Under the pieces are notes generated by a model. The model had not been told where the DNA came from, searched no databases, and saw only the letters and a program-made list of their open reading frames with translations. Positions 29,070-45,628 of a stretch of DNA of 45,628 nt are shown piece by piece (position 1 is the first letter of the stretch; every line of letters starts with the position of its first letter). A program made the position numbers and the translations under genes. Origin of the DNA: a virus; IMG/VR virus record IMGVR_UViG_3300017763_000036, positions 1-45,628 of that record; one strand, given 5' to 3'.

Positions 29070-29491
29070 GACAGTTTGATCCTGTTTTTTATATTTTTTA
29101 ACTCTTCTTGAACATCTATTAAGGACAAATTTAACATTTTATTTTGTTCTCGCAACTCATTTAGTTCTTTTTTTATTTGCAAGGGTTTTAATTCATCATA
29201 TTCCCCTTCTTCTCCTTCCCATAAAATTATAATATTTTTATAATCCCTTTCTAATTGAGCATCAAATTTTCTCATAAAAGGAAATTCTTTTACTGCGTGC
29301 AGAACAGTTGCGTGGTTTTTACGAAATGCTGTTCCTATTGCTGTGTAAGACATTAAACACTTTTCTCTTAATAAAGTATATGCTAATGCTCTGGCTTTAA
29401 TGTATAAGTAAGTTCTGTTTTTAGAATCTATATCAATCTCGTAATGAGAGTTGATCATTTGCTTTATTGCTTTTACTTTTTCTTGATTCAT
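29057..29491 (-). CDS. DnaA domain IV-like DNA-binding protein (144 aa)
   Basis: Residues about 24-70 match the helix-turn-helix of DnaA domain IV: IKARALAYTLLREKC, then YTAIGTAFRKNHATVLHAVK, where KNHATVLHA aligns with the DnaA signature DHTTVLHA. There is no AAA+ domain, so it is a stand-alone DNA binder. The C-terminal half is acidic then helical (coiled-coil-like, LKKELNELREQNKMLNL type). The ATG is preceded by a typical A/T-rich leader, although this makes a 59-base overlap with the upstream gene. It may recognise origin or regulatory repeats, or compete with host DnaA. Confidence 0.72.
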   Translation of the reverse strand: MNQEKVKAIKQMINSHYEIDIDSKNRTYLYIKARALAYTLLREKCLMSYTAIGTAFRKNHATVLHAVKEFPFMRKFDAQLERDYKNIIILWEGEEGEYDELKPLQIKKELNELREQNKMLNLSLIDVQEELKNIKNRIKLSCQE

Positions 29492-31341: not shown

Positions 31342-33740
31342 ATATCTATTGATGTTTGTTTTTCTTTTTCAACAAATTGAATCCACTTTCCTATCATATC
31401 TCTACCCTCTAAAGGATAACACTCATATTTGTACTGAGAAAAAGATGATAGCCACTTTCCAAACCTAACCCTACTAACAGCCATTCTTGATTTAGGAGCA
31501 TAATCAGGATATTCATTAGTAAAATCAAGATATAAATCATTTATTTTAATTCTTTCTCCTGGTATTAGTTTAGAGTTAGGACTGCCCCCTATTACTCCAC
31601 ACCACTCTATAAATTCGTGAGATGTTTCTGCAGAGAATTGCCTTGCTTTTAGGTTGACAAAATCGCTTTTTAATAATCCTTTCTCTAAATATAATTGCAG
31701 ATTTTGTATCATATAGTTATCAAATTGACACCAATCATTATCATCCCATTCTCCAAACATAAGTTTACTAAACTCTACAAGAGGAGTAAATTCTTTAGTA
31801 TAAAATTGACTTAACTCTAATTCCCATTTTCTTCTTTCAAAAGAAGATCCTTTTCCTTTTATTGCGTAGTTAGTAGTTATAGCCACCTTAGGAGATTTAC
31901 TAAATGGTATTTTAATAGCATCTTTATTTTTCTTTTCAAGAGTCAATCCTTCAGTTACTACACTAAATAATCTTTCAAAGTCAAAGTGTTTTTTTACATC
32001 ATCAAAACAAAGTATTTGTGTATCAGCAGAAACTAATTGATAAGCAAAAGATTTTTCAAAGTTAAATGACTTACCATCTATTACCACTAACTTTTTCATG
32101 TGAGACAATCCAGTCATAAACAATCCCTTTCCAGTACCACCCTCAGGGTTGTCTGATATAACCTCATCATTAAGTATAGTTGCTGGGCAGTAAGATAAGT
32201 TTTTCCATCCATGCAATAAATAACCTATAGTAGACTCCATTGATTTAGTTCTTTTTTCAGTGCCACCACTAATATTATTTATAAAAGTTTTATAATCACA
32301 ATCAGTAATTTCACATATATCAAAGACTCTATTTATTACGTGGTCTTTCCAAACATACCCTCCTAAATCTAAGTAATCAATAGGGATAACCTCATCCTTA
32401 GTTATTTTAACTGCACAATTTTTATAGTATAAATAAGCGGTGCTTTTATTATCGGCAATAAAATAAACATTAATAGAAGATAATAAAGTTAAGAACTCCT
32501 CTCTAAAATATCTAACTTGATCTGCAAAGTAATTGTAAACTGATATATCATCTATATCTAACAGGTAATTTAAGATAAAATCTTTAATTTCTTTTTCTGA
32601 CGTATGGTCTATCAGGTTGTTAGTTACTTTAACAAATACGTAGTTCTTACTTCCTTCAGGATTAAACTTGTAAAAACCATTATCTTCTAAAAACTTTTTA
32701 AAAGATATATGTACAATCTTTACTACTCCCTTTTCTGATTTACTCCAAAACTTTTGCTTGTCTTGTTCTTCCTCTAACCTTCTAATAACATTATCTATAA
32801 CACTGTCCTCTACTTCAGAGCTATCTTCTATATGAGATTTTATTTCCCCTTTAGATACTCCTTTTCTTAATTTAGACTTAACCTCATTTACTCTTTCTTC
32901 ATCTTCATAATATTTAGTTCCAAAATTCTGGACTTGTTTATATGCTGAACTAATCGTTCTTTTAATTTCATTTTGAGAAAAGTCTTTACTTACAAAATTA
33001 TTCATTATGTATTCAGCTAAAGTTCTATTAATCCCAAAATCATTAAAGGCAGATGCCAGTATATAAACATTATTATTTCTCTCTCCACTATTTAATCCGT
33101 ACTTTCTCTCCCACCACTTCATTAGTATCTCAACTATTTTATTTTCATCGGTAATAGGTATAGTTTGTATGTCTTTATGTTTTACTACCTCTTGGTATTC
33201 TTGTTCTATAATTTGATTAAAAACACTGGATTGCTCATTAATATGGATTAAGGGATCATAACTCTCATAACATACTCTTGATAAATTTTTACAAGACACA
33301 TCAAAATATTCACTATCATAATGATGCTGTAAAGAATTAAAAAATTGCTTATGAGTTTCAGCTTCATCCGGAATCTTTACTAAGACCTTTAATCCTAATC
33401 CACTGGGCGAAATAAAACATGAGTAGGTGTATCTATCTTTTGTTATGTTTTCTTTTTCTTCCAGTAATTCTTTTTCTGAAGGAAAATTATCAAAATCTAA
33501 ACATATAAGTCCACTATGCTTAGTAATAGATGAGTCGTTTCTTTTTGTAAATTTACCACTAAAACATATTGCCGGTAATGATTGCTTTAATTTATTTCTT
33601 ATTTCTTTGTCTTTTTCTGCCCTTATTGATCGGACTATTTCTTGTGATGCTCCTTCTTGAATCCTTTCTAATATTTTTGATACGTCTCTATAAAAAGGTT
33701 GAGAAGTGTCTTTAATGTCTTTAAATATGGTGATTTCCAT
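31338..33740 (-). CDS. Primase-helicase: VirE N-terminal-like domain plus SF3/D5-like helicase
   Basis: 800 residues. The N-terminal ~200 match the VirE-N/BT4734-type domain, with an AEP-primase-like pattern: LDFDN (81-85, DxD) and SPSGLGLK (111-118). Residues about 215-270 form a PriCT-like helical domain (NSGERNNNVYILASAFND). The C-terminal part is a superfamily 3 helicase: Walker A GGTGKG (534-539), Walker B ILCFDD (576-581) and sensor VAITTN (619-624). The expected role is unwinding and priming at the phage origin. The gene is preceded by a 246-base regulatory region with iteron-like repeats and a promoter. Confidence 0.86.
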   Translation of the reverse strand: MEITIFKDIKDTSQPFYRDVSKILERIQEGASQEIVRSIRAEKDKEIRNKLKQSLPAICFSGKFTKRNDSSITKHSGLICLDFDNFPSEKELLEEKENITKDRYTYSCFISPSGLGLKVLVKIPDEAETHKQFFNSLQHHYDSEYFDVSCKNLSRVCYESYDPLIHINEQSSVFNQIIEQEYQEVVKHKDIQTIPITDENKIVEILMKWWERKYGLNSGERNNNVYILASAFNDFGINRTLAEYIMNNFVSKDFSQNEIKRTISSAYKQVQNFGTKYYEDEERVNEVKSKLRKGVSKGEIKSHIEDSSEVEDSVIDNVIRRLEEEQDKQKFWSKSEKGVVKIVHISFKKFLEDNGFYKFNPEGSKNYVFVKVTNNLIDHTSEKEIKDFILNYLLDIDDISVYNYFADQVRYFREEFLTLLSSINVYFIADNKSTAYLYYKNCAVKITKDEVIPIDYLDLGGYVWKDHVINRVFDICEITDCDYKTFINNISGGTEKRTKSMESTIGYLLHGWKNLSYCPATILNDEVISDNPEGGTGKGLFMTGLSHMKKLVVIDGKSFNFEKSFAYQLVSADTQILCFDDVKKHFDFERLFSVVTEGLTLEKKNKDAIKIPFSKSPKVAITTNYAIKGKGSSFERRKWELELSQFYTKEFTPLVEFSKLMFGEWDDNDWCQFDNYMIQNLQLYLEKGLLKSDFVNLKARQFSAETSHEFIEWCGVIGGSPNSKLIPGERIKINDLYLDFTNEYPDYAPKSRMAVSRVRFGKWLSSFSQYKYECYPLEGRDMIGKWIQFVEKEKQTSIDI

Positions 33741-33744
33741 TGTA

Positions 33745-33930
33745 TATGTTGATTTTATGTTAATTTAATGTCAGTTTTATTTTTACTTTTTTAACTATTT
33801 ACTTCTTATATTCTTTTTATTTATGTTAATATGTTAATAATATATATAAAAAAGATAATAAAAGAATATATATATATCAATATATTACTTATAGTCTATA
33901 AATAGCTTACAAACTTAACATATCAACATA
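33745..33930. repeat. AT-rich iteron-like element 1 (TATGTTRA repeats) before primase-helicase
   Basis: Six 8-base TATGTTRA copies: direct on the + strand at 33745-33752, 33756-33763, 33822-33829 and 33830-33837; reverse at 33915-33922 and 33923-33930. The pairs at 33822 and 33915 are each abutting and are inverted relative to each other, with starts 93 bases apart. The ~77 bases between are nearly pure A/T, including AATATATATATATC. An equivalent element lies at 43018-43125. Either an origin (iterons plus unwinding region) or an operator array could look like this. The gap 33741-33986 holds no gene. Confidence 0.6.
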
Positions 33931-33941
33931 TATTAATGCAA
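33910..33941 (-). promoter_or_regulatory. Promoter for the primase-helicase operon
   Basis: On the - strand TTG (33941-33939), 21 bases, then TAAGTTTG (33917-33910), a full Bacteroidota-type promoter. Two abutting TATGTTRA repeats fill most of the spacer and the -7 box edge, so a repeat-binding protein would control access of polymerase. Confidence 0.6.
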
Positions 33942-33964
33942 AAGAAAGGGGACACGAAGCCCCC
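33940..33964 (-). terminator. Rho-independent terminator after SSB-like gene
   Basis: On the - strand GGGGGC/GTCCCC pairs with one wobble around a TTCGT loop and is followed by TTTCTTTT. It lies 22 bases after the stop of the 85-residue gene and directly before the next promoter. Confidence 0.75.
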
Positions 33965-33986
33965 TCCCTTACATTAGTACTTAGTT

Positions 33987-34244
33987 TTAGAAAGGTAGAT
34001 CCTCATCTACTGCTGGTGCAGTTTCTTTCTTAGGTTCAGGCTTATAAGTGTCTACAGTTAAGTAATGTGTTTTACCATACTCATCTTCACCATCTTTTTT
34101 AGCCGATACATTTAGCTTGATATACTTCTTTCCATTGTATTCAAACATGTGTTCTTGAGGTAAGTCTGTTAAACATACGCTGCATGAGATTAAGTTCCCA
34201 TCAAACTTGGAAACTCCGTTTCCTACATAGATTTTTTCTGCCAT
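33987..34244 (-). CDS. Small single-stranded DNA-binding-like protein
   Basis: 85 residues with one small beta domain (KIYVGNGVSKFDGNLISCSV, KYIKLNVSAKKDGEDEYGK, THYLTVDTYKP) and the acidic tail DEDLPF, which copies the C-terminal tip of bacterial SSB (DDDIPF) that recruits replication proteins. No complete classical OB-fold SSB signature is visible, so it is a short phage type. It ends its transcript at a terminator. Upstream are the recombination nuclease and annealing protein, which is a typical setting for a phage SSB. Confidence 0.68.
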   Translation of the reverse strand: MAEKIYVGNGVSKFDGNLISCSVCLTDLPQEHMFEYNGKKYIKLNVSAKKDGEDEYGKTHYLTVDTYKPEPKKETAPAVDEDLPF

Positions 34245-34247
34245 GAT

Positions 34248-34412
34248 TTAATTTTTATAAATTATTTTTTCCAACTGATTCATTGTTGCCTCCATAAGAT
34301 TATCTCTTTCGGCTTGAGAAGTAAGGTCGGTTGGAATTTGCAACCATACTACTCTTTCTTTTTTATTAAAGTATTTCTTTAATGATGTAATTTTCAATAT
34401 CTTCTTTAGCAT
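34248..34412 (-). CDS. Small overlapping ORF (54 aa), unknown
   Basis: An ATG at 34412 opens 54 codons that overlap the end of the RecE-like gene by 47 bases and stop 3 bases before the SSB-like ATG. The product is basic then amphipathic (YFNKKERVVWLQIPTDLTSQ, then a helix MEATMNQLEKIIYKN). It would otherwise leave a 121-base gap in a very compact operon, which favours it being real. An internal TTG at 34397 is an alternative start. No family is recognised. Confidence 0.5.
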   Translation of the reverse strand: MLKKILKITSLKKYFNKKERVVWLQIPTDLTSQAERDNLMEATMNQLEKIIYKN

Positions 34413-35100
34413 CTTTACTATAAAATTTGTTAAACACTTCTATTGCTTTTTCTACTTTCTCTTTTCCATTAGTCAAAAAAGTTTGTGATGGATGATATAT
34501 TCCTAACTCCAGCGTGCTTTTATCTACTACATAAAACGCAACGGGCTTGTCAAAGAATTGCTGATACAGGTATGCTTGACTATCATAGTTATACTTCCTG
34601 GCACTATATTTAAAATCTTTTATATTTCCAGTTGTTTTAAGATCTATAATAAAATCTTTAGAAACAATATCTGCCTTGCCTTTCCACATCATACCCATAA
34701 CCTCATGTATAGCTGGTACTTCATACTCATTACCGGTATCATATATGTCCTCAAAAAACTCTAAGTTATTTTTCATAACACTTATTGCTTTATCAATCTC
34801 TACCTTTTCTTTATCTAACATCATTAATGTTCTACCATAATTAAGTATCTCTTCCTTATACTTTTTAGAATTTCTACTGGCTACATCTATACTGACAAAC
34901 TCTTCTGAAGTTAATTTTTCAGGTTCTAACATAGCTGTATGAAAGTATCTACCAACTAACATAGGTTTAGTAAATTCTTTAGGTTTCCTAAAACTTTTTG
35001 GATCATTTAACAGGTTGATAATATCAGAGTTAGACAAGAACTTTCTCCCAAACTCTCCGTAGTAATGATGATCATCTTTTAATTTATCTAAATCACTCAT
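34366..35100 (-). CDS. RecE-like PD-(D/E)XK exonuclease
   Basis: 244 residues with the exonuclease VIII/PDDEXK pattern: GRYFHTAML (H54), GKADIV (D144), IIDLKTT (D153, K155) and QAYLYQ (Q175). These supply the metal-binding and catalytic residues of the RecE/lambda-type fold. Such enzymes resect double-stranded ends so that an annealing protein can load. The annealing protein gene is directly upstream, 2 bases away, so the two form a recombination pair. The length is that of phage RecE nuclease domains, not full-length E. coli RecE. Confidence 0.84.
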   Translation of the reverse strand: MSDLDKLKDDHHYYGEFGRKFLSNSDIINLLNDPKSFRKPKEFTKPMLVGRYFHTAMLEPEKLTSEEFVSIDVASRNSKKYKEEILNYGRTLMMLDKEKVEIDKAISVMKNNLEFFEDIYDTGNEYEVPAIHEVMGMMWKGKADIVSKDFIIDLKTTGNIKDFKYSARKYNYDSQAYLYQQFFDKPVAFYVVDKSTLELGIYHPSQTFLTNGKEKVEKAIEVFNKFYSKDAKEDIENYIIKEIL

Positions 35101-35102
35101 AA

Positions 35103-35711
35103 CTATTTTATATGTTTAGATATTTCCTTTTTTACCAGTGGCTTAATTTTATATTTAACCTCTAAGTTTTTTACAATTTTAGGTAATCCAAGTTCTTTAT
35201 TATCTGCAACATATTTTAATACTTTAGCAAAATTTGCATCACCTATATTTAATTCAACGTGGGTCGCTTTCTTAGGCACTGGAGTTTTACTAACGGGCGT
35301 AGATGTATGTACTACTAATGAAGTATCTTCCCCTATCCACAAACTCAAACCTAACCCATGCATAGCTATTGCCTTTGCAGTAGATCTTTGTATTGCAGTG
35401 TTTACATCCATAGACGAAACTTTGTCAATAGATATAGAGTTATTTCTATAATCCATTACCGGCAAATAATCTATATGCTCCATATCATTAATAGTAATCC
35501 CCACTTTTACATAAGCAGTTTTTCCATCAGTAAAAAAGTTTAATCCAGTATGCTCACTTTCATATACTTTTCTTTGTGCATTAGGGTATTCGCTTTTAAT
35601 CATACTCCAAGCAGTTGCCCAAGATAGATAGCTAAATTTCCCTTTCTTTTCAGTTTTATCCTTTACGGATATGGATGATAAATCCTTAAAGATGTTCTTT
35701 TTCTTTTCCAT
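35103..35711 (-). CDS. DUF1071/Sak-type single-strand annealing protein
   Basis: 202 residues. The N-terminal ~135 match DUF1071 (Sak-type annealing proteins): FSYLSWATAWSMIKSEYPNA, TAYVKVGITIN, DYLPVMDYRNNSI, and the helix MDVNTAIQRSTAKAIAMHGL followed by GLSLWIGED. These proteins anneal complementary single strands in phage recombination. The C-terminal part is basic (KYKIKPLVKKEISKHIK). It sits in an operon with the RecE-like nuclease and the SSB-like protein. It overlaps the preceding gene by 26 bases. Confidence 0.85.
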   Translation of the reverse strand: MEKKKNIFKDLSSISVKDKTEKKGKFSYLSWATAWSMIKSEYPNAQRKVYESEHTGLNFFTDGKTAYVKVGITINDMEHIDYLPVMDYRNNSISIDKVSSMDVNTAIQRSTAKAIAMHGLGLSLWIGEDTSLVVHTSTPVSKTPVPKKATHVELNIGDANFAKVLKYVADNKELGLPKIVKNLEVKYKIKPLVKKEISKHIK

Positions 35712-36123
35712 TTGATTTGATTTTATTTAATTTAAGTTGTTGTTGTGAATACTTTATTAGTAGCTTATCTCTACTATTTTTTAATTTTTGTATATGTTTA
35801 TCGTTTTTTCTTGAGTTTACCTCCATTCTCATTTTATACTCTACAAGATCCAGCTTTCTTTTGCAATTATACATAGATAGTAGAATGCATCCTTTTACCC
35901 ATCCATTAATATAAAATAGTTCATACTCCTCATCACTGCATTCTGAAAAATAATCTCCAGACTTATTGCAGTTTAATATCTCTATTTTAGAAGGGAATTT
36001 TTGGAGTTTAGCGCCTCTATTTATAATACTATACCCATTTGTAAGTTTGTTTTTAATTGCTCCCTGATCCTCTAAAGATTGTGCATAAATTTCTTCTAAA
36101 CTATACACCTTGAATATCAGCAA
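35686..36123 (-). CDS. Protein of unknown function (145 aa)
   Basis: Overlaps the DnaA-like gene upstream by 23 bases and the annealing gene downstream by 26. It is basic at the C-terminus with a long heptad-like helix (KLKNSRDKLLIKYSQQQLKL). A central aromatic patch (YELFYINGWVKGCILLSMYN) includes a Cys. No recognised domain. The tight overlaps on both sides support a real gene in the recombination operon. Confidence 0.58.
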   Translation of the reverse strand: MLIFKVYSLEEIYAQSLEDQGAIKNKLTNGYSIINRGAKLQKFPSKIEILNCNKSGDYFSECSDEEYELFYINGWVKGCILLSMYNCKRKLDLVEYKMRMEVNSRKNDKHIQKLKNSRDKLLIKYSQQQLKLNKIKSNGKEKEHL

Positions 36124-36394
36124 TAAGTTTTTGAAAGTCCTTATCAGTATCTATAAGTGCTTTCGCTTTCTTATATCCATGTATGATTGTAGAATGACAA
36201 ACACTATACCCTTGTTCTTCCATAAATCTTTGTATATATGAAATTCTAATAGGGCGTTCCATACATAAATAGTATAGCATTTGCCTTGCATCTACTATCT
36301 CTCTTTTTTTAGTTCTATCAAACATTTGATCCATTGTCAAATGAAATTGACTGGCAATAGCATTAGCATATTGCTCAAAAATATCTTTTTTCAT
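36101..36394 (-). CDS. Second DnaA domain IV-like DNA-binding protein (97 aa)
   Basis: The ATG at 36394 follows an A/T-rich leader and is preferred over an upstream in-frame ATG at 36433, which lies inside the promoter. Residues about 26-80 resemble DnaA domain IV: DRTKKREIVDARQMLYYLCM, RISYIQRF, then VCHSTIIHGYKKAK, which corresponds to the DHTTVLHACRK signature of DnaA. It has no AAA+ part. The sequence differs strongly from the 144-residue relative at 29057, so it is probably not a recent duplicate. As first gene of the recombination operon it may regulate it, or bind the origin. Confidence 0.68.
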   Translation of the reverse strand: MKKDIFEQYANAIASQFHLTMDQMFDRTKKREIVDARQMLYYLCMERPIRISYIQRFMEEQGYSVCHSTIIHGYKKAKALIDTDKDFQKLIADIQGV

Positions 36395-36413
36395 ATTTAA
36401 TTTAATTAGGGGG

Positions 36414-36445
36414 CTAAGATAATTCTTTTTCAATTAATAGCCAAA
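36414..36445 (-). promoter_or_regulatory. Promoter with variant -7 box TATCTTAG
   Basis: On the - strand TTTG (36445-36442), then exactly 20 bases, then TATCTTAG (36421-36414), 19 bases before the ATG at 36394. The -7 box differs from TAnnTTTG at one position. The same variant, same spacing and the shared bases TTAGCCnCCTAA recur at 39922-39952. Confidence 0.55.
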
Positions 36446-36474
36446 TTATGTTTAACTTTTTTTTATTTCTTTCT

Positions 36475-36513
36475 TTCCCCATTTGGGGAATTTACTTCCC
36501 ATTTGGGGAATTT
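36475..36513. repeat. Tandem hairpin repeat TTCCC(C)ATTTGGGGAATTT
   Basis: Two copies, at 36475-36493 and about 36496-36513, each able to form a hairpin (TTCCCC/GGGGAA with an ATTT loop; the second one base shorter). They overlap the end of the 92-residue gene and precede the next promoter. No T run follows on the - strand, so these are not a standard terminator for that gene, although they may mark the transcript end. Confidence 0.55.
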
Positions 36514-36770
36514 TCTTTTTTACATTGAACCCTATACAATATAAGGTATCCAATTAAATCAAGCATTGTGTCTTCTGTTTTATCGTTAAGCCCACTGGTT
36601 TTTATCCTACTTAACTTATCATCTATCCTTGCCAGTATTCCCTCTTTTGCAGATAGTTTAGAAAATATTTTAGGAGGATCATTTGCAGTATCTCCGTATG
36701 CCTTATTCTTTTCCAGTAATAACATTATTACCTCTCTTCCTACTTCTTTAATTAATTCTTCAGTTTTCAT
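36492..36770 (-). CDS. MazG/DUF1599-like helical phage protein
   Basis: 92 residues: EVGREVIMLLLEKNKAYGDT, PKIFSKL, ILARIDDKLSRIKTSGLND and DTMLDLIGYLILYRVQC. The order KNxxYGD, E-x-x-D-K and D-x-x-GY is that of small all-alpha proteins related to DUF1599/MazG nucleotide pyrophosphohydrolases, common in phages. D residues near 50-52 and 70-72 could bind a metal. It may tune nucleotide pools, but the assignment rests on motif memory. The C-terminal residues are encoded inside a tandem hairpin repeat. Confidence 0.6.
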   Translation of the reverse strand: MKTEELIKEVGREVIMLLLEKNKAYGDTANDPPKIFSKLSAKEGILARIDDKLSRIKTSGLNDKTEDTMLDLIGYLILYRVQCKKENSPNGK

Positions 36771-36775
36771 TTTAT

Positions 36776-37141
36776 TTAATCTATTAAGTTAATTTCATTT
36801 CTTGTTTCTACATACTCATAACACATCCCTATCTCAGAATGTATTTCCCCATCTTCTCCAAGACCTATACAAAATACATTTTGTAAATTATCTTGCCTAT
36901 CAATGGTGTAATCATCTTGTTTCTCTAACCAATCCATAATCTCTTTACACCAATTATCTGACTCATACCATTTAATATATTCAAATGTATAAAATTTCAT
37001 TCCATCATTTTCGGTATGGGTCTTTAGATAATCCCCATCCGGCTTATCTACTGGAAACTCATGTTTCCTTAATATCTCATCAAATTCATTTGATCGTTTA
37101 CCATTTTTTACTCCAATAATTACTTTACTTCTGTATCCCAT
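36776..37141 (-). CDS. Protein of unknown function (121 aa)
   Basis: Starts MGYRSKVIIGVKNGKRSNEF, with a strand-helix pattern, then KFYTFEYIKWYESDNWCKEI and an acidic C-terminal strand region (GEDGEIHSEIGMCYEYVETR). The arrangement resembles a small ferredoxin-like alpha/beta fold; this is a guess from the pattern. Separated from the neighbours by 1-5 bases and starting after TTAAATAAA, so a genuine operon member. The function is unknown. Confidence 0.58.
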   Translation of the reverse strand: MGYRSKVIIGVKNGKRSNEFDEILRKHEFPVDKPDGDYLKTHTENDGMKFYTFEYIKWYESDNWCKEIMDWLEKQDDYTIDRQDNLQNVFCIGLGEDGEIHSEIGMCYEYVETRNEINLID

Positions 37142-37142
37142 T

Positions 37143-37334
37143 TTATTTAATTTTTTTATTTAATTCTTTTTTCCAAAATTCTCTCCTCCCTAATTTAGTT
37201 TCTAAATACGTTTCTTCAAGTTGGTTTTCAAAAAACTCTTTCATATACTCTATATCTAATATAACCCTCCCCTCACTATCTTCGTGCCAAAAAACTGGAG
37301 TCATTATATGTGTTTTCATTTTTGTTTTTGCCAT
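37143..37334 (-). CDS. Small protein of unknown function (63 aa)
   Basis: Short protein with a basic N-terminus (MAKTKMKTHIMTPV), an acidic middle (DIEYMKEFFENQLEE) and a basic end (REFWKKELNKKIK). It overlaps the previous gene by 19 bases and stops 1 base before the next start. No recognised domain. Confidence 0.5.
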   Translation of the reverse strand: MAKTKMKTHIMTPVFWHEDSEGRVILDIEYMKEFFENQLEETYLETKLGRREFWKKELNKKIK

Positions 37335-37648
37335 AGTTGTTTTAATTTTTTATTTGATTTATAACTTTTTGCTCGTTCCTTACTAATAATTTTATTATAT
37401 TTTTCTGTTTTTTTTATTATTTTATATCTATTTTCAGAATGAAATTTATCAAACTCCAGTATATTGTTTTCATAACCACTATAAGTTTCATTTGATTTTT
37501 CTACCTTTCCACTATATTTAAAATAATCATCAAGTTCTATTGTGTTTTGCTTATAGGTATCCTTTAAAGAATTAATTTGCTTTACTTCTGCAATTAAATT
37601 TCTAACAAGATCTTTTATACTATAAGTGTCCTCCATAATTTTCTTCAT
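37316..37648 (-). CDS. Small basic helical protein (110 aa)
   Basis: Rich in Lys, Asn and Tyr, mostly helical, with a possible coiled coil in the first 35 residues (VRNLIAEVKQINSLKDTYKQ) and a strongly basic C-terminus (KERAKSYKSNKKLKQLWQKQK). Overlaps of 19 and 29 bases with its neighbours. An internal Met at codon 5 (37636) is an alternative start. No family is recognised. Confidence 0.5.
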   Translation of the reverse strand: MKKIMEDTYSIKDLVRNLIAEVKQINSLKDTYKQNTIELDDYFKYSGKVEKSNETYSGYENNILEFDKFHSENRYKIIKKTEKYNKIISKERAKSYKSNKKLKQLWQKQK

Positions 37649-37883
37649 CTATATCAAATCTCATTTCGTGTTCACTATCCTTTTCATCCATACCATCTCC
37701 TAATCCAAATCCATATTCTAATGTTGCTTGATTATTTGCATTTTCGATAGCATCAGTCCACTTATCCTCATTCTCAAACAGCCAATCAGAAACTTTATCC
37801 TCTGCTATGTCTTTAGGTATCTCTATTATTATTTCACAATACTTGTGATATATTGTTCTGCTACTAATTTTTACTTCTCTCAT
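37620..37883 (-). CDS. Acidic small protein of unknown function (87 aa)
   Basis: I chose the ATG at 37883 because it follows an A/T-rich leader like that of other genes here and begins on a strand-like segment (MREVKISSRTIYHKYCEIII). A longer frame from 37955 would add 24 residues. The rest is acidic (KDIAEDKVSDWLFENEDKWT, MDEKDSEHEMRFDIDEENYG). The acidic charge is shared by several neighbours. The function is unknown. Confidence 0.5.
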   Translation of the reverse strand: MREVKISSRTIYHKYCEIIIEIPKDIAEDKVSDWLFENEDKWTDAIENANNQATLEYGFGLGDGMDEKDSEHEMRFDIDEENYGGHL

Positions 37884-37947
37884 TTTTTTATTTTTATTTA
37901 ATTGATAATTATGGATATACTTTATCCATTTGTCGTATGTTAGTTCT

Positions 37948-38160
37948 CTATTCATCTCTCATATCTTCTAAGTGGTTTTCTCTTTGTATGGCTATATATT
38001 CGTATTCCTCTATCTCCTCACAATACTCGTTGCATTCACTACATAGTAATTTATCCTCATCATACATTTCACTATATATTTCCTCATATTCTGAGCCACA
38101 ACACTTGCTTACCATCTCAGTATAGTCGGGTGTTGCTAACTTCCAGTTATCATAATTCAT
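37948..38160 (-). CDS. Small acidic zinc-ribbon-like protein (70 aa)
   Basis: Two Cys pairs, SKCCGSEYEE and LLCSECNEYC, fit a minimal zinc ribbon (C-C...C-x-x-C) set in a very acidic chain (EIYSEMYDEDK; EEIEEYEYIAIQREN). It abuts the 235-residue gene upstream (1-base overlap). Small acidic zinc proteins in phage early regions often bind host proteins. That role is an inference. Confidence 0.55.
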   Translation of the reverse strand: MNYDNWKLATPDYTEMVSKCCGSEYEEIYSEMYDEDKLLCSECNEYCEEIEEYEYIAIQRENHLEDMRDE

Positions 38161-38867
38161 TACGCTATTTCTAATTGATTAGTATTTATTAAACTTTCTT
38201 TTGCTTCCTTTAATGTTTTTCCTAAAAATTCGTTAGAGTAGTCTAAATAATATCCTATTCCATCATCAAAATTAGGGTTTTCCTCAAGTAATTTTGTAAT
38301 CGTATACACAAAATTATCTTTAGTATTTATCTCTTCTATTTCCTCCCAAGATGGCTCATCATAATCACATCTATCTATCTCTTCCCCATCTTCAAAATCT
38401 CTTTCCCCTCCCCATCCGGTCTCTTCTTCAAACCAATAATGGAATGATGGGAAGTCTTTAGCAAACATTTCTATTATATCTTCTCCAATGGGACTCCAAG
38501 CTGATGTAAATTTTATTACATCATCATCTATTTCAAAATCATAATCTCCCCATTTTGTATTCCAATTAGTTAAAGCCCATTCATACCAGTTATTTGATCC
38601 CCACAATTTAATATAGTGTTCGGACATTTTTTTAGTTAAATACTTACTTCTCATAACATCTTTAGTAGCTTGTTTATTTTTTAATTCTTGCTCTTTATGT
38701 TCTTCTTCAGTTATTATTACCATAGGGCTTGAGGTGTTTTCCAGTGCTACCGGCATAGGGTTATAGTATCTGCAAATTCCCCCTACTTTTTCTATTTGTT
38801 TTAATATACTTTTTTGTTTTCCAGTGGTATCAGATAATGATATTCCACAATATACGTGATTAGGCAT
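38160..38867 (-). CDS. YubB/Api92-like ferredoxin-fold protein (DUF1281-like)
   Basis: 235 residues starting MPNHVYCGISL, with the family core WYEWALTNWNTKWGDYDFEI and FTSAWSPIGEDI, then FPSFHYWFEEETGWGG. This is the pattern of YubB/Api92-type proteins found in phages and plasmids, whose biochemical role is not established. A long acidic C-terminal region follows. It is the largest gene in the cluster of tiny genes and starts after a TTAAATT leader. Confidence 0.72.
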   Translation of the reverse strand: MPNHVYCGISLSDTTGKQKSILKQIEKVGGICRYYNPMPVALENTSSPMVIITEEEHKEQELKNKQATKDVMRSKYLTKKMSEHYIKLWGSNNWYEWALTNWNTKWGDYDFEIDDDVIKFTSAWSPIGEDIIEMFAKDFPSFHYWFEEETGWGGERDFEDGEEIDRCDYDEPSWEEIEEINTKDNFVYTITKLLEENPNFDDGIGYYLDYSNEFLGKTLKEAKESLINTNQLEIA

Positions 38868-38888
38868 AATTTAATTTTATTTTAGTTA

Positions 38889-39014
38889 TTATTTATTTGA
38901 TTTATCGTTTATCATTTCATCTAACCATCTCATATACATAAAGTCTTGTTTATTTAATGGTTTTCTTAATTCTCTTTTTAAGCATTCTATATAAAAGTTA
39001 GTGTCTTTTTTCAT
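38889..39014 (-). CDS. Very small protein (41 aa), unknown
   Basis: An ORF of 41 codons fills what would otherwise be a 150-base gap in a tightly packed operon. It starts 2 bases after the preceding stop following TTAAATAGAT, and reads MKKDTNFYIECLKRELRKPL, then a helix with MRWLDEMINDKSNK. No family is recognised. The compact spacing and charged helical composition favour a real gene. Confidence 0.5.
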   Translation of the reverse strand: MKKDTNFYIECLKRELRKPLNKQDFMYMRWLDEMINDKSNK

Positions 39015-39016
39015 AT

Positions 39017-39241
39017 CTATTTAATTTTATTAATTTCTATTGGTATATGGTTTTCATCTAATTCGGTTATTACACTGGTAAATAGTGTTATACTCTCATC
39101 ACTATCATCCCATACTTCAATGTTATTGAAGATAATATCAAAATCCTCATCTTCTCCATTAGTTCTATTTCCTAATAAATGTATATACTTATTTGGGTTT
39201 TCTATTTTTTGCAGTTCTGCAATTAAATCTTTTACTATCAT
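39017..39241 (-). CDS. Small acidic protein of unknown function (74 aa)
   Basis: Reads MIVKDLIAELQKIENPNKYI with an acidic strand-rich remainder (EDEDFDIIFNNIEVWDDSDE). This beginning is common among small phage proteins of unknown role. Gaps to both neighbours are 2 bases, so it is part of the same transcript. Confidence 0.55.
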   Translation of the reverse strand: MIVKDLIAELQKIENPNKYIHLLGNRTNGEDEDFDIIFNNIEVWDDSDESITLFTSVITELDENHIPIEINKIK

Positions 39242-39243
39242 AT

Positions 39244-39432
39244 CTATTTATTTTTTTTACTGGCATCAAATCCAAGATCTTTTTGTAATTCTAAAGTTCT
39301 CTTCTCTAAGTATTCTATATATTCCATAAACACTTTTACATAATACTTTTTATCAGTTGTTAGTTCCTCAATAAATCCACTATTAAAATAGTTAAATCCA
39401 TCATCTACTTTGTCTATTAATTTATCTTTCAT
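39244..39432 (-). CDS. Small protein of unknown function (62 aa)
   Basis: Mixed-charge helical protein: LIDKVDDGFNYFNSGFIEEL then a helix VFMEYIEYLEKRTLELQKDL ending in a basic tail. It begins 1 base after the previous stop and ends 2 bases before the next start. No domain is recognised. Confidence 0.5.
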   Translation of the reverse strand: MKDKLIDKVDDGFNYFNSGFIEELTTDKKYYVKVFMEYIEYLEKRTLELQKDLGFDASKKNK

Positions 39433-39433
39433 A

Positions 39434-39886
39434 TTATTTAATTTTAATTGTATAAAATTCTCCCGTAGGGCTATCGTGGTGCGATATTCTTACTTTATAT
39501 TCCCTATCTTTTACTTTTTCTATTTTATAAGTTAAATCACATTCAGGAGCAATTTTATAAAACATATCTTCTCCTCTTCTTAATGTAAATTGTTTATGTC
39601 CGGTTCTATTGTTCCAACCCATATTTCTACCCTCAACAAATACTTCTTCATCTACATATTCCATAAATTCATCATTTAAATCGTATAAAAATTGTTCTTT
39701 GTGTATTTCGTGTTGGTATATATCATTATAAAAGTGTTCTTCTACTTCCTTGTCAGTTATACTTTTAACATCTCTTTCTTCATCCCATAAGATACTTACT
39801 GCAAATTCTTGCTTATCGTTCTTAAAAAAGTCAATCTCATCCATTAAGAATTGACTCTCATCATATTGTGTTTTCCAGTTTTCCAT
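39434..39886 (-). CDS. Acidic protein of unknown function (150 aa)
   Basis: First gene after the promoter at 39922. Helical, acidic N-terminal two thirds (ESQFLMDEIDFFKNDKQEF, EEHFYNDIYQHEIHKEQF) and a beta-rich C-terminal third (YKIEKVKDREYKVRISHHDS, GEFYTIKIK). An internal NMGWNNRTGHKQFTLRRGED segment is more basic. No family is recognised. As a promoter-proximal gene of a host-interaction-like cluster it may be expressed strongly and early. Confidence 0.55.
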   Translation of the reverse strand: MENWKTQYDESQFLMDEIDFFKNDKQEFAVSILWDEERDVKSITDKEVEEHFYNDIYQHEIHKEQFLYDLNDEFMEYVDEEVFVEGRNMGWNNRTGHKQFTLRRGEDMFYKIAPECDLTYKIEKVKDREYKVRISHHDSPTGEFYTIKIK

Positions 39887-39921
39887 AATTTTGTTTATTT
39901 AATTTAATTTAAGTTAGGTGG

Positions 39922-39952
39922 CTAAAATAAGTAATACTTTTTAATTACACAA
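39922..39952 (-). promoter_or_regulatory. Promoter with variant -7 box TATTTTAG and operator-like inverted repeat
   Basis: On the - strand TTG (39952-39950), exactly 20 bases, then TATTTTAG (39929-39922). A perfect 10-base inverted repeat, AGTAATACTT at 39930-39939 with its complement at 39951-39960, occupies the spacer and -33 region, a likely repressor or activator site. Confidence 0.55.
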
Positions 39953-39981
39953 GTATTACTCATTATTTATTTTTTATTACT

Positions 39982-40215
39982 CTACATACTTGTTAAGCAT
40001 TTAGGACAAAAGGCGTGTAAATCAGTGTATTCTACATCTTCTTTACAATTCCAACATTGCTCTTTATGTATTGGCGTTGTCTCCTCAAGATCTTTTTTTG
40101 CTATCTCTAAATACATATCATCAATATCTTTATCAGATATATTTACAAAATCGTTGATATGGTTTTGGTATACATTCAGTATTCTTACTAAATCTTTCTT
40201 TTTAAAGTCTATCAT
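39982..40215 (-). CDS. Small protein with C-terminal zinc ribbon (77 aa)
   Basis: Helical N-terminal ~50 residues, with charged clusters (KDLEETTPIHKE), and a C-terminal ribbon CWNCKEDVEYTDLHAFCPKC: two CxxC pairs 15 residues apart, a good zinc-binding site. Promoter or terminator sequence follows at 39922-39960. The zinc ribbon suggests DNA, RNA or protein binding, and nothing more specific can be said. Confidence 0.6.
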   Translation of the reverse strand: MIDFKKKDLVRILNVYQNHINDFVNISDKDIDDMYLEIAKKDLEETTPIHKEQCWNCKEDVEYTDLHAFCPKCLTSM

Positions 40216-40227
40216 ATCTATTTATTT

Positions 40228-40335
40228 TTATTTATATTCGTTTCTATACCAATCATATTTTCTATGGTAGTATTCACTATTATTTATTACTCTCATAAAT
40301 CCGTATAGGTTTATCATTCTTATTAGTTTTATCAT
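40228..40335 (-). CDS. Very small basic protein (35 aa), unknown
   Basis: An ATG at 40335, 1 base after the upstream stop, opens 35 codons ending 12 bases before the next gene. The product is hydrophobic then aromatic and basic (MIKLIRMINLYGFMRVINN, YYHRKYDWYRNEYK). Its leader TAAAATTAAATAATATG matches the local start style. Without it there would be a 121-base gap in a dense operon. No family is recognised. Confidence 0.45.
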   Translation of the reverse strand: MIKLIRMINLYGFMRVINNSEYYHRKYDWYRNEYK

Positions 40336-40336
40336 A

Positions 40337-40549
40337 TTATTTAATTTTATAGTATTCAATAAGTAAAGAGTCGTTCTTCACTTGGTATTCATTATATAGT
40401 TTATTCATCTCATAATCAATTTTATTTCTTTGTTGTAATTGCTCATCAGATAGTTTGTTCATCATTCCACAACTTGTTAAACAAATTAATATCAGTATGC
40501 CGAAAATTATTTCAGCTACATTATTTTCTATTTTATCTTTCATATCCAA
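40337..40549 (-). CDS. Small predicted lipoprotein (70 aa)
   Basis: An N-terminal hydrophobic segment IIFGILILICLTSCG with lipobox LTSC predicts cleavage and lipidation at C27, placing the mature protein on an envelope membrane. The mature part is short and charged (SDEQLQQRNKIDYEMNKLYN). The region before the hydrophobic core is longer and more acidic than usual (MDMKDKIENNVAE). Small phage lipoproteins act in superinfection exclusion or as outer-membrane spanins. Its place in the early-type cluster rather than with lysis genes favours exclusion. It overlaps the upstream gene by 17 bases. Confidence 0.65.
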   Translation of the reverse strand: MDMKDKIENNVAEIIFGILILICLTSCGMMNKLSDEQLQQRNKIDYEMNKLYNEYQVKNDSLLIEYYKIK

Positions 40550-40718
40550 AGTATTTTATTATCTCGTTTAAGTTTAAGTAATATGTTTCCCAACCATCAA
40601 CAAAACAATTTACTTCCCATTCATTTTTATTTAATCTTATAACTTCTTTTGTAGAAAGTCCGTATCTTTTTATTTCAAGATGCTCTCCCATTGACATTGC
40701 TAAAAATTTCTTTTTCAT
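40533..40718 (-). CDS. Small protein of unknown function (61 aa)
   Basis: Basic N-terminus (MKKKFLAMSMGEHLEIKRYG) and a beta-rich body (EWEVNCFVDGWETYYLNLNE). The start follows an AATA-rich leader. It overlaps the lipoprotein gene by 17 bases, so translation of the two is probably linked. No domain is recognised. Confidence 0.5.
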   Translation of the reverse strand: MKKKFLAMSMGEHLEIKRYGLSTKEVIRLNKNEWEVNCFVDGWETYYLNLNEIIKYFGYER

Positions 40719-40738
40719 ATTTATTTCTTTAGATCTTT

Positions 40739-40951
40739 TTATTTAGTTTTTAAGTGTTTATATTCTATATTATCTTTTATTAATTCATTCATCTGACTTG
40801 CTCCTCTCCAACTCCAATGTTTATGTGCATTATCGTTAGAATGAACACTATAATTGTTGCATAGATGGGAAATTTCATTCCATTCTTTTTTTGTTATTTC
40901 GTATGATTTCTCAAGTTTATCAAACCATACAATTACCATTTCTTTTTCCAT
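40739..40951 (-). CDS. Small protein of unknown function (70 aa)
   Basis: The ATG at 40951, after AATTAAAAAGTTTTAAA, is preferred to an in-frame ATG at 41029 because the longer version would run through a perfect palindrome. Reads MEKEMVIVWFDKLEKSYEIT, then NSVHSND-type polar residues with HKHWSWRGASQMNE. The Trp/His-rich segment is distinctive. No family is recognised. Confidence 0.5.
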   Translation of the reverse strand: MEKEMVIVWFDKLEKSYEITKKEWNEISHLCNNYSVHSNDNAHKHWSWRGASQMNELIKDNIEYKHLKTK

Positions 40952-40989
40952 TTTAAAACTTTTTAATTTATTATTATTATTTGTAATAG

Positions 40990-41009
40990 ACAGGAGAAAT
41001 TTCTCCTGT
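40990..41009. repeat. Perfect 20-base palindrome upstream of a small gene
   Basis: ACAGGAGAAA followed by its exact complement TTTCTCCTGT. It lies between two - strand genes, 38 bases before the ATG at 40951. No T run follows, so it is more likely a mRNA structure or protein site than a terminator. Confidence 0.6.
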
Positions 41010-41042
41010 TTCGGACAATTAGCCCTCATCAGTATTACTATT

Positions 41043-41258
41043 TTAAAGCCAATATAGAGTCGTTTCTAATGTATCAGGTATACACCATTCGTTAGCATCT
41101 TCCTCGCTTATAATCCCATCTTTTTGCCAACTATCCATTAAATTGTTATACTCTTCTCTTCTTGCCGGTCTATCGGGTATCCCATCAGTTTCAAATCTTT
41201 TTGCTATCAGTGGCAAAATCTCCATTTTAAAATAATTGTTAAATTCTTTTTGAGTCAT
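41043..41258 (-). CDS. Small protein of unknown function (71 aa)
   Basis: Helical start (TQKEFNNYFKMEILPLIAKR) followed by DRPARREEYNNLMDSWQKDG and IISEEDANEWCIPD. This ending resembles small phage proteins with a conserved R-R-E-x-W/Y-N...D...W pattern, of unknown role. It is preceded by a GC hairpin 15 bases from its ATG. Confidence 0.58.
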   Translation of the reverse strand: MTQKEFNNYFKMEILPLIAKRFETDGIPDRPARREEYNNLMDSWQKDGIISEEDANEWCIPDTLETTLYWL

Positions 41259-41273
41259 TTTCTTTTGTTTTAT

Positions 41274-41292
41274 GGGGGGAAATTCTCCCCCC
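41274..41292. repeat. G/C hairpin upstream of a small gene
   Basis: GGGGGG (41274-41279) and CCCCCC (41287-41292) with a 7-base loop, 15 bases before the ATG at 41258 and after the preceding stop. No T run follows on the transcribed strand. Its loop core resembles the palindrome at 40990. Confidence 0.6.
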
Positions 41293-41305
41293 TATTAGTA
41301 TTAAT

Positions 41306-41572
41306 TTATTTTCTATTCCCCTCTATTAGGTTTTTTATTGTTCTCCATTCACTAAATTTAACGTCCGTTAAAAGTAAGTGTGCAATTAAAGTGGATAAAT
41401 CAAAATCCAAATCTTTATTTACTTCTTGTATTGCGTTTCTTAACTTTGGGAAATGTTTACTTGCTATTTTAAAATCAGCGTATTCAAAATCTTGTTCGTT
41501 GGTATGCTTTACTCTTGCATCCTTTTTTAAGTGTTGCATTTTCTCAACAATTTCATAAACTTTTGTATTCAT
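41306..41572 (-). CDS. Small protein of unknown function (88 aa)
   Basis: Helical, mildly basic: VYEIVEKMQHLKKDARVKHT, FPKLRNAIQEVNKDLDFDLS and a hydrophobic helix TLIAHLLLTDVKFSEWRTIK. It follows the first gene of the operon by 24 bases and begins after an AAAATT leader. No family is recognised. Confidence 0.52.
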   Translation of the reverse strand: MNTKVYEIVEKMQHLKKDARVKHTNEQDFEYADFKIASKHFPKLRNAIQEVNKDLDFDLSTLIAHLLLTDVKFSEWRTIKNLIEGNRK

Positions 41573-41596
41573 AATTTTTCTTTTTAATTTATTTTT

Positions 41597-41980
41597 TTAT
41601 TTGTTGTATTTTTGGTGTAATTTTAGGATATGGAAAGACATGAAATTCCAATAATTTTTCAATACAGTATCTTCCCAACTTTTTTTGGTCTCTCCCTCTA
41701 TCTCTTGCAAATCTTTTGCAAGTGCTAAAATATCGTAGTTATAACAAGGGATATCTATACAAGATGGCAAACCGGACAACCATTCCGCAAATCTCTCTTG
41801 TTGGTTTGGTGTTCTTCTTCTTGCGTATTCGCATTCGTATTCTGAGTTGAAGCAATCAAAAACAAATTTTAATTTTTGTTCTGGTGTGTTTGTTTCTGTT
41901 GCGTAGTCAGTTCCATCAATTTGATTAAGTAAATAATTTTCCATATTGGATAAATATTTTTTTGTGTTTGTTCTTAGCAT
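41597..41980 (-). CDS. Phage protein of unknown function (127 aa)
   Basis: First gene of the long - strand block, 41 bases downstream of a -7 box. Residues 58-82 contain NQQERFAEWLSGLPSCIDIP followed by CYNYDILALAKDL, a pattern I associate with a family of small phage and mobile-element proteins from Bacteroidota with no known role. The C-terminal helix is Trp-rich (SWEDTVLKNYWNFMSFHIL). An internal Met at 41944 is an alternative start. Confidence 0.6.
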   Translation of the reverse strand: MLRTNTKKYLSNMENYLLNQIDGTDYATETNTPEQKLKFVFDCFNSEYECEYARRRTPNQQERFAEWLSGLPSCIDIPCYNYDILALAKDLQEIEGETKKSWEDTVLKNYWNFMSFHILKLHQKYNK

Positions 41981-42020
41981 TTTTTTTGTATTAAATTAGT
42001 ATTAGTTTTTATTTCTTGGG

Positions 42021-42028
42021 CAAAGATA
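42021..42028 (-). promoter_or_regulatory. -7 element TATCTTTG for the long - strand block
   Basis: On the - strand TATCTTTG at 42028-42021, 41 bases before the ATG at 41980. A TTG at the normal -33 distance is absent, so the promoter may need an activator. Confidence 0.5.
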
Positions 42029-42099
42029 GTGCAATTCTTTTTAATAATCCTAATAAAAAACAAAGTATTTTTGTCCCAAAGTGAAAATAATTTGTAAGT

Positions 42100-42480
42100 C
42101 GTTGTTATTCAGGAGGTTATAGAGGTAAATTTTTTGTGTTTTCTTGGTGTTTTGTTTATGTTTTGGGGGGTTCGTGGGGGGTTTAAGGTGCATCTCTTCA
42201 CCTCTTAATCATCTTTTTTAGTTCTTTAAGTGGGGGAAGGTGTCCGGATCTTGGGGGAAGGTGTCAAGATCTTGAGAGAATAAGGGCGAACAAGGAACGA
42301 GAGCAGGGGGGCAAGGTGCGACCGGTAGAGAGTAGAGGGGCAACCGGTAAAAACGGCAAAAATTCCCCACAAAAAAAAATATAAACGAGAGGGGGGGGTA
42401 AGATTTTGTTTTCGTTTTCTGAGACGGATGCCGAGCGTATGACCGAGGGGAACCCTCAACCCCAATACATCTAAAAAAAT
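42100..42480. other. Gene-free G-rich region between divergent transcription units
   Basis: Composition changes sharply from A/T to G/purine-rich on the + strand, with runs of five to eight G at 42165, 42176, 42232, 42253, 42306 and 42391. A 21-base direct repeat (GGGGGAAGGTGTC...ATCTTG) occurs at 42232 and 42253, and ACCGGTA occurs twice (about 42320 and 42342). The - strand ORF here has no credible composition or leader. Candidates are a packaging or terminus site, a structured RNA or a recently acquired segment. The whole gap between genes is 41981-42507. Confidence 0.5.
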
Positions 42481-42484
42481 TTTA

Positions 42485-42492
42485 TATCTTTG
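42485..42492 (+). promoter_or_regulatory. -7 element TATCTTTG
   Basis: A perfect TAnnTTTG box 15 bases before the ATG at 42508, at the edge of the G-rich region. No -33 TTG is seen. Confidence 0.55.
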
Positions 42493-42507
42493 TAAAAAAA
42501 TAAAACA

Positions 42508-42627
42508 ATGAAAACAAAAAAAACATCCATGGCAAAATTAGCTGTAAAGGGAGCAAAGAACGCAGCAAAAAATGTTAGAAAAGTTACTAAAATTCAAAAG
42601 AGAACGAATAAAACTAAAAAATATTAA
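42508..42627 (+). CDS. Very basic small protein (39 aa)
   Basis: An ATG 15 bases after a -7 box opens 39 codons, ending 2 bases before the next gene. The product is almost all Lys, Ala, Thr, Asn and Arg (MKTKKTSMAKLAVKGAKNAA then VRKVTKIQKRTNKTKKY), like a histone-H1 tail or nucleic-acid-binding peptide. The promoter and the tight coupling to the next gene support it. Its start resembles that of the 247-residue virion-block protein (MKTKKT). Confidence 0.65.
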   Translation: MKTKKTSMAKLAVKGAKNAAKNVRKVTKIQKRTNKTKKY

Positions 42628-42629
42628 TT

Positions 42630-42860
42630 ATGAAAAAAATGACAAACCCTTTTGAAAAACCTTCTGGAGCTTCTGACTATGTTGACGGGCTTTATGTAAA
42701 AGATGGTAGGTTAAGAAATGATCGTAGAGACGGAGAGACTGGTATAGCTCAAATGTCTCGTATGAAACATGCAGCTGATCGTCAGAAGAAAATAAGTGAG
42801 ATAGCTGATGGTATTGAAAGAGCAGAAGATAATAAAAGATTTAGAAATTTAGATTTTTAA
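42630..42860 (+). CDS. Small charged protein of unknown function (76 aa)
   Basis: Reads MTNPFEKPSGASDYVDGLYV then a charged helix (MKHAADRQKKISEIADGIER). It follows the basic 39-residue gene by 2 bases and is closed by a terminator, forming a two-gene transcript. An internal Met at codon 4 is a possible alternative start. No family is recognised. Confidence 0.6.
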   Translation: MKKMTNPFEKPSGASDYVDGLYVKDGRLRNDRRDGETGIAQMSRMKHAADRQKKISEIADGIERAEDNKRFRNLDF

Positions 42861-42894
42861 AAGACATCCCATTGATGTTCTGTTGTGAGAAAAG

Positions 42895-42925
42895 GAGGTA
42901 AGACATTCAGTCTGCCTCTTTTTTT
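42895..42925 (+). terminator. Rho-independent terminator
   Basis: GAGG...AGAC pairs with GTCT...CCTC around an ATTCA loop with a small internal bulge, followed by seven T residues. It closes the two-gene transcript that starts at 42508. Confidence 0.72.
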
Positions 42926-42932
42926 ATATCTA

Positions 42933-43125
42933 TATGTTAATCTTCAACATATTTATGTTATCTTTTTTTCAACTCAACATTTTATAACTTACTGATTTAT
43001 AATCTATTATATTAAAATATGTTAATATGTTAACTTTAACTCTATTTTTATTAATAAATAAATAATAATAATAATAGAATATATATATATATAAATACAG
43101 ATTTAAAAATAAACATACTGACATA
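42933..43125. repeat. AT-rich iteron-like element 2 (TATGTTRA repeats) before groEL
   Basis: Abutting direct copies TATGTTAA at 43018-43025 and 43026-43033, then about 76 bases of nearly pure A/T containing AGAATATATATATATAT, then abutting degenerate reverse copies at 43110-43117 (TAAACATA) and 43118-43125 (CTGACATA). Further copies lie upstream at 42933-42940 (direct) and 42944-42951 (reverse). Spacing between the pair starts is 92 bases, against 93 in element 1. The gap 42861-43185 holds no gene. Confidence 0.6.
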
Positions 43126-43145
43126 TATTATGTATATATTTTTAT

Positions 43146-43153
43146 TATCTTTG
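43146..43153 (+). promoter_or_regulatory. -7 element TATCTTTG for the groEL transcript
   Basis: A perfect TAnnTTTG box 32 bases before the groEL ATG. The expected -33 region overlaps the reverse TATGTTRA pair instead of a TTG, so a repeat-binding activator or repressor probably controls this promoter. Confidence 0.6.
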
Positions 43154-45066: not shown

Positions 45067-45324
45067 ATGAAACCAATAGGAAAATACATAGTAATAAATA
45101 AAATAAACGAAGAGTTAAAGACAGAGTCTGGTCTTTTATTGTCAGCCCAGGATGCTTCAGACTTTAGATATCGTAAAGGCGAGGTTGTTAAAGCCGGTAC
45201 AGATGTTAGTGTTATTAATGAAGGGGATCTTATTTATTATGATAAATCCGCAGGACACGAAATGTTAATTAAAGACAATCCTTATACGGTTATTACTGAG
45301 AGAGATGTCGTTGTTGTTTTATAA
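45067..45324 (+). CDS. groES: Phage-encoded GroES-type co-chaperonin (Cpn10)
   Basis: 85 residues against 97 in E. coli GroES. The fold pattern is clear: an N-terminal strand GKYIVINKINEELK (cf. DRVIVKR in GroES), the mobile loop with hydrophobic tripeptide TESGLLLSAQ, RKGEVVKAG, then EGDLIYYDKSAGHEM and the closing YTVITERDVVVVL (cf. ESDILAIVE). The roof-loop region is shortened. It should cap the adjacent phage GroEL, as gp31 does for host GroEL in T4. It converges with and overlaps the next gene by 32 bases. Confidence 0.85.
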   Translation: MKPIGKYIVINKINEELKTESGLLLSAQDASDFRYRKGEVVKAGTDVSVINEGDLIYYDKSAGHEMLIKDNPYTVITERDVVVVL

Positions 45325-45628
45325 ACTGATTCATTTCTATAATCATATTTCTATAAACCTTATCTGTATAAGAAGCATCATATCTAAATAAAGGGTTAGT
45401 CTTAGGGCTTTCCCCTATTTCTTCTCCATTTAACTTTTTGTATATAGTGTTTATCATACGCTTACCTTTATAGGAAAGCTCGTACAAGGCAGCTTCTCCA
45501 TTTTGTTTTTTACGCCATATATGAATCCATCCTTGCTTTAAGAGTCTGTAAAATCTGGGTTCGTCCCACGACATACATTCTTCAAATTCTTTAAACTTTG
45601 TTTTATTAAAAAGCTGCTCACTATAAAG
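45293..45628 (-). CDS. Winged-helix-like protein, 5' truncated by window edge
   Basis: The frame stays open to the right edge, so the ATG at 45574 is probably internal. Visible are helices NKTKFKEFEE and PRFYRLLKQGWIHIWRKK followed by ALYELSYKGKRMINTIYKKL, a helix-turn-helix then wing-like pattern of the MarR/winged-helix type. The C-terminal part (YTDKVYRNMIIEMNQFIKQ) is helical. It could be a transcription regulator or a small-terminase-like DNA binder; the latter is possible if the genome map is circular, but the part seen does not decide. Confidence 0.55.
   Translation of the reverse strand, partial: LYSEQLFNKTKFKEFEECMSWDEPRFYRLLKQGWIHIWRKKQNGEAALYELSYKGKRMINTIYKKLNGEEIGESPKTNPLFRYDASYTDKVYRNMIIEMNQFIKQQRHLSQ

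Follow-up and report, generated by a model that had tools for sequence, protein, structure and literature searches.

A candidate iteron origin of replication upstream of groEL, with a second, dispensable copy upstream of the primase-helicase gene, in Bacteroidota phages

Two intergenic sites in a viral genome carry the same arrangement of short repeats, one in the 5′ region of a primase-helicase gene (E1) and the other in front of groEL (E2), which raises the question of what function the two could share. A preliminary description of the locus had offered two answers: an operator of a phage regulon linking replication and chaperonin expression, or twin origins. The stretch of DNA analyzed here (the window), 45,628 bp in length, is a virus record in IMG/VR and comes from a virus of Bacteroidota bacteria. 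Judged by comparison, it is a fragment, because relatives with matching gene order measure 57–65 kb, and the frame at 45293–45574 (− strand) is open toward the window end, as expected of a fragment. Primase-helicase scans provided 107 distinct upstream regions corresponding to the E1 position, and groEL-upstream regions corresponding to the E2 position were read in 38 relatives plus MW202828.1 (Podoviridae sp. ctfjg026). The latter has the gene order of the window, carries the element at both sites, and is annotated with terminase and portal genes, which identifies it as a phage genome and not a PICI island.

Each element is composed of a tandem pair of TATGTTRA units with an 8-bp period, an A/T core, and an inverted pair. 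In E1 (33822–33930), the tandem pair TATGTTAATATGTTAA is located at 33822–33837 (+ strand), the A/T-rich core (87% A+T), a candidate unwinding element, at 33838–33914, and the inverted pair, which reads TATGTTGATATGTTAA on the − strand, at 33915–33930, an anatomy conserved in relatives. In E2 (43018–43125), the same pair TATGTTAATATGTTAA is found at 43018–43033 (+ strand), followed by a candidate unwinding element with 92% A+T at 43034–43109 and by an inverted arm at 43110–43125 (− strand) with the units TATGTCAG and TATGTTTA. The spacing from pair to inverted pair is 93 bp in E1 and 92 bp in E2. The paired elements, spacings, and A/T cores are thus as first described, except that the second arm of E2 is degenerate. 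Single sites accompany both elements. At E1 these are TATGTTGA (33745–33752) and TATGTTAA (33756–33763), on the + strand and with an 11-bp period, beside the primase ATG; relatives have two to three such sites with the same period near the primase start. At E2 there are four between 42933 and 42981, in both orientations (42933–42940, +; 42944–42951, −; 42954–42961, +; 42974–42981, −), the last two with one mismatch each, and an IHF-consensus-like site, AATCAGTAAGTTA, at 42985–42997 (− strand). E1 of some relatives (for example, L006 and L008) has a TATAAGTAGTAAG-like stretch, with the inverted pair on one side and the 11-bp single sites on the other, that is reminiscent of DnaA-trio elements.

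The repeats are enriched over random sequence. TATGTTRA occurs 15 times in the window as compared with 7.9 expected from shuffles (15 or more copies were reached in 2 of 100 shuffles), and 10 of the 15 copies fall within the two intergenic sites. The tandem 16-mer TATGTTRATATGTTRA has three copies in the window, only at E1 and E2; shuffled windows contain a mean of 0.44 copies at two or fewer mismatches, and never three. Along the + strand, both elements have their parts in one order (single sites, pair, A/T core, inverted pair). With the primase-helicase gene at 31338–33740 on the − strand and groEL at 43186–44835 on the + strand, downstream of E2, this means that the elements are oppositely oriented relative to their downstream genes, with the single sites lying toward the gene in E1 and away from it in E2; the equal orientation relative to the downstream gene that had been reported holds only on the genome strand.

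In related phages the layout recurs, and the repeat word differs. The preliminary description, which named a lack of conservation in relatives as grounds for refutation, thus passes its own check. Many of the 107 primase-upstream regions keep the layout, with the words TGTTRA, TGACRA, TGATGA, TGTCRA, TGYTCA, and TGGAAT, and it is present in nearly all of the groEL-upstream regions, generally in the phage's own word. The word is usually common to a phage's two sites (TGTTRA, TGTCRA, TGAYRA, TGYTCA, or TTCCAA). For instance, the window and relative G010, whose groEL proteins are 87% identical, differ in their words, with TATGTTAATATGTTAA at both sites of the window and TATGTCGATATGTCAA at both sites of G010. 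Within phages, 7-mer sharing of E1 with E2 amounts to 457 over 32 phages, as compared with 218 (SD 22, maximum 311) when the sites are re-paired between phages, and none of 20,000 re-pairings matched the observed value; an earlier version of this test used 24 phages, and in a minority of phages, including the window, the phage's own E2 is not ranked first. With words taken from E1 alone, E2 is the genome's best 330-bp window in 11 of 17 contigs, the failures being G005, G006, and G028, the last of which has no E1; in G010, G022, G025, and G027, E2 is near the top. Phage-specific word patterns (in this cluster scan chosen from both sites) are rare outside E1 and E2, and in most contigs these two clusters rank first and second in density or close to that.

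E2 is retained where E1 is missing. No E1 was seen in six phages (G028, G029, G030, G033, G034, and G035), where the DNA adjoining the primase ATG is a terminator or some other unrelated sequence; the main cluster in these phages is still E2. The E2 words in these phages include GGCAGAC, ATTCCG, CGTCGA, and TATGTCGCG, often with an 11-bp period; all six genome copies of CGTCG[AT] in G034, and all five genome copies of TGTCG[CT]G in G035, are located inside E2. Of 25 E2 regions, 17 have an IHF-consensus site (WATCARNNNNTTR) whose position, flanked by the single sites and the pair, hardly varies, as compared with 2.7 of 25 in shuffles; such a site is found in 26 of the 107 E1 regions, where it usually points the other way with respect to the gene. 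DnaA boxes (TTWTNCACA) number two in the window, where 6.7 are expected by chance, and none is at E1 or E2, which led us to reject a DnaA-box origin.

Could the primase-helicase itself read the repeats? Profile searches match it to BT4734-like_N, PriCT_1, and DUF5906, the last corresponding to the helicase. The AlphaFold model of its C-terminal domain (pLDDT 88) has helices and a two-stranded wing in winged-helix order, and a Foldseek search with this domain placed the P4 origin-binding domain (1KA8) at rank 7 of 350,542 chains, a weak match (E 0.49). A model that includes the helicase region is of low quality (pLDDT 66); with it, PriRep1 (7pds), from a staphylococcal island, was found first and the NrS-1 helicase second, again weakly (E about 0.01; 0.008). 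We treat these Foldseek matches as leads, not proof, and a PDB sequence search with both the single protein and a profile found no relevant relative. At the other end of the protein, residues 36–175 match the NCBIfam model for CRISPR-associated PrimPol type B with a score of 43 bits, short of the cutoff of 200.

The candidate readers conserved in relatives are the primase-helicase, two Bac_DnaA_C-like proteins, and a small winged-helix-like protein. Variability in the primase-helicase peaks in its last ∼100 residues, and it is this part that tracks the word: among 31 proteins or segments compared over 26 genomes, primase residues 701–795 (labeled PRIM_728-790 in the correlation output) have the highest partial correlation with word class (0.283, 0 of 300 permutations), in an analysis that holds constant the mean divergence of the other proteins, uses word classes assigned by eye, and controls partly for relatedness. 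The whole primase is next (0.198), and some other proteins, including nearby recombination genes, lie at 0.15–0.20; other primase segments correlate as well. Low values were obtained for the DnaA-like protein at 36101–36433 (−0.05), the wHTH protein at 45293–45574 (0.04), and groEL (−0.01); 18 orthologues were required, and the DnaA-like protein at 29057–29491 fell below that number and was left out. A partial Mantel test on 50 phages with E1 words points the same way but separates the primase wHTH (0.165) only weakly from the helicase segment (0.141). The top covarying column, K785R, is in the wing, and we rejected it as a single specificity residue because the independent changes are too few for significance. 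In the two Bac_DnaA_C-like proteins and the wHTH protein at 45293–45574, the recognition helices are retained among phages whose words are unrelated. For the DnaA domain IV-like proteins, which had been put forward as binders, the signature stays constant while the words change and the one at 36101–36433 does not track the word; this proposal is not supported. The C-terminal winged-helix-like domain of the primase-helicase (residues ∼700–795) is, on these data, the candidate iteron binder.

Some neighboring genes deserve a brief mention. The proteins encoded at 29057–29491 and 36101–36433 (both − strand) are small, have a DnaA domain IV-like helix-turn-helix (Bac_DnaA_C), and are conserved in relatives. 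The winged-helix-like protein at 45293–45574 (− strand), called a "repressor" in MW202828.1, is conserved in 17 of 17 relatives. A Sak-like annealing protein is encoded beside a PDDEXK exonuclease-like protein at 34366–35711 (− strand); both correlate with the iteron word, possibly as a result of traveling together with the replication module.

We consider it likely that E2 is the phage's replication origin, with iterons bound by its own primase-helicase, and that E1 is a second, dispensable copy. On our best reading of the sequences, this is the composition of an iteron origin recognized by a primase-helicase that loads itself: iterons on both sides of an A/T region, an IHF-like bend, and no DnaA boxes. 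The C-terminal winged-helix-like domain would bind the iterons, both the tandem pairs with their 8-bp period and the single sites spaced by 11 bp, the DNA would be bent at the IHF-like site between the E2 single sites and pair, and strand opening and helicase loading would take place at the flanked A/T core. E1, with the same word, may provide autoregulation, an accessory origin, or both, and can be lost. The sequences themselves show the anatomy, the agreement of words between the two sites, the persistence of E2 where E1 has been lost, and a primase C terminus that tracks the word; binding, unwinding, and origin activity at E1 and E2 are the steps that we infer.

A different reading is that E1 and E2 are operators of a phage regulator co-controlling the primase-helicase and groEL, without origin function. 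Both elements are upstream of genes, and 11-bp-spaced sites at the primase ATG would suit repression. The promoter overlap in the preliminary description also stands in part: a promoter-like −7 box, TAAGTTTG (33910–33917, − strand), overlaps the inverted pair of E1, and the right arm of E2 adjoins the groEL −7 promoter box, TATCTTTG (43146–43153, + strand), which is of a conserved type. However, a TAnnTTTG-type box precedes groEL in 37 of 39 regions, whereas TAnnTTTG is present within 230 bp upstream of the primase in 20 of 107 relatives. The E1 box is not conserved, E1 as a promoter-spacer operator was rejected on that ground, and a conserved promoter overlapped at both genes is not what the relatives display. 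The absence of E1 from six phages that keep E2 further weakens this reading, as do G012 and G042, where an inserted gene separates groEL from an E2 that has kept its place, which means that E2 is not simply a groEL operator. Moreover, the possible regulators (the wHTH protein at 45293–45574 and the DnaA-like proteins) have recognition helices that stay the same while the words change, and operators would need neither ∼77 bp of A/T core separating two sets of iterons that face each other nor an IHF-like site. We therefore regard a pure operator function as unlikely.

Still less probable, in our estimation, is that E1 and E2 are equal twin origins that both fire, as might be suggested by the near-identical order of their parts and, in most phages, by a word common to the two sites, since E1 is dispensable and E2 is found in phages that have no E1. 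GC skew, proposed at the outset as a check, points the same way: the detrended minimum is 0.34–1.24 kb from E2 in 12 of 12 contigs and 5.7–11.8 kb from E1. Because gene direction flips where the skew flips, the minimum is confounded with transcription and is support for E2, not proof. Between the two answers offered initially, the origin half thus fits best, given iteron sets that flank an A/T core, a conserved IHF-like site, and a skew minimum at E2. Finally, host-bound or structural repeats without a phage-specific binder, to which A/T-rich intergenic DNA is prone, are a very improbable explanation, contradicted by words that contain G/C letters, change as a set, and match between sites ∼10 kb apart.

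An origin at E2 read by the primase-helicase would have relatives among known systems. PICI origins (SaPI, EcCICFT073; PMC6092414) likewise have two iteron sets flanking an A/T region and element-specific words, together with a cognate primase/Rep such as the one proposed here. Here, in contrast, the setting is 57–65-kb Bacteroidota phage genomes, with two copies, an IHF-like site, and a BT4734-like primase N terminus, and whereas a PICI origin is immediately 3′ of rep, E1 is 5′ of the primase-helicase gene and E2 is ∼9.4 kb away, upstream of groEL. As to word specificity, each phage has its own word, and the proposed match to the primase C terminus is a correlation. P4 has a two-site layout, ori and crr, both of which are needed. 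Its alpha protein is a primase/helicase (PMC8628076). That protein combines primase, helicase, and C-terminal winged-helix origin binding (1KA8), as the one here is predicted to do, and in both cases two cis elements have a common word; unlike in P4, E1 can be lost here, a sequence relation is not detectable, and the structural match to 1KA8 is weak. In the PLE satellite, the DNA-binding domain of RepA and the iterons covary, and swapping of origins results in incompatibility (PMC8263062), but the iterons are ∼30 bp and semi-palindromic and the initiator is of the RepA_N type, not a primase-helicase. By analogy, P4 ori and crr may serve as a precedent for two sites and PLE RepA as one for domain-iteron covariation. 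Marine Bacteroidetes phages with GroEL, as here, have been reported (PMC5332604), in a paper where a replication origin is not mentioned. Cultured GroEL-bearing elemo phages have no such element upstream of groEL, and none is evident before the replication gene; in the open-licence literature, we found no description of the element and origin for such Bacteroidota phages.

If correct, the E2 assignment would predict, in a large group of Bacteroidota phages, both the origin and the domain that gives the initiator its specificity, and an origin layout that has been reported as unique to PICIs would then be shared by phages. It would also make available dozens of natural pairs of word and initiator for asking how winged-helix initiators come to recognize another DNA target. 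Replication modules with distinct words would, moreover, be incompatible between relatives. More tentatively, and with somewhat less than even confidence, we propose that these are island-type iteron origins in a two-site form, in which an initiator domain and two distant iteron sets switch words together, so that close relatives would have replication "dialects" incompatible with one another, perhaps as a way to evade competitors or satellites that target the origin. As to the distribution of the primase itself, relatives L445–L452 are on MAG contigs labeled Pseudomonadales, Aliivibrio, Pacearchaeota, Flavobacteriales, Aureispira, and Cytophagales, of which the first three labels are probably binning errors.
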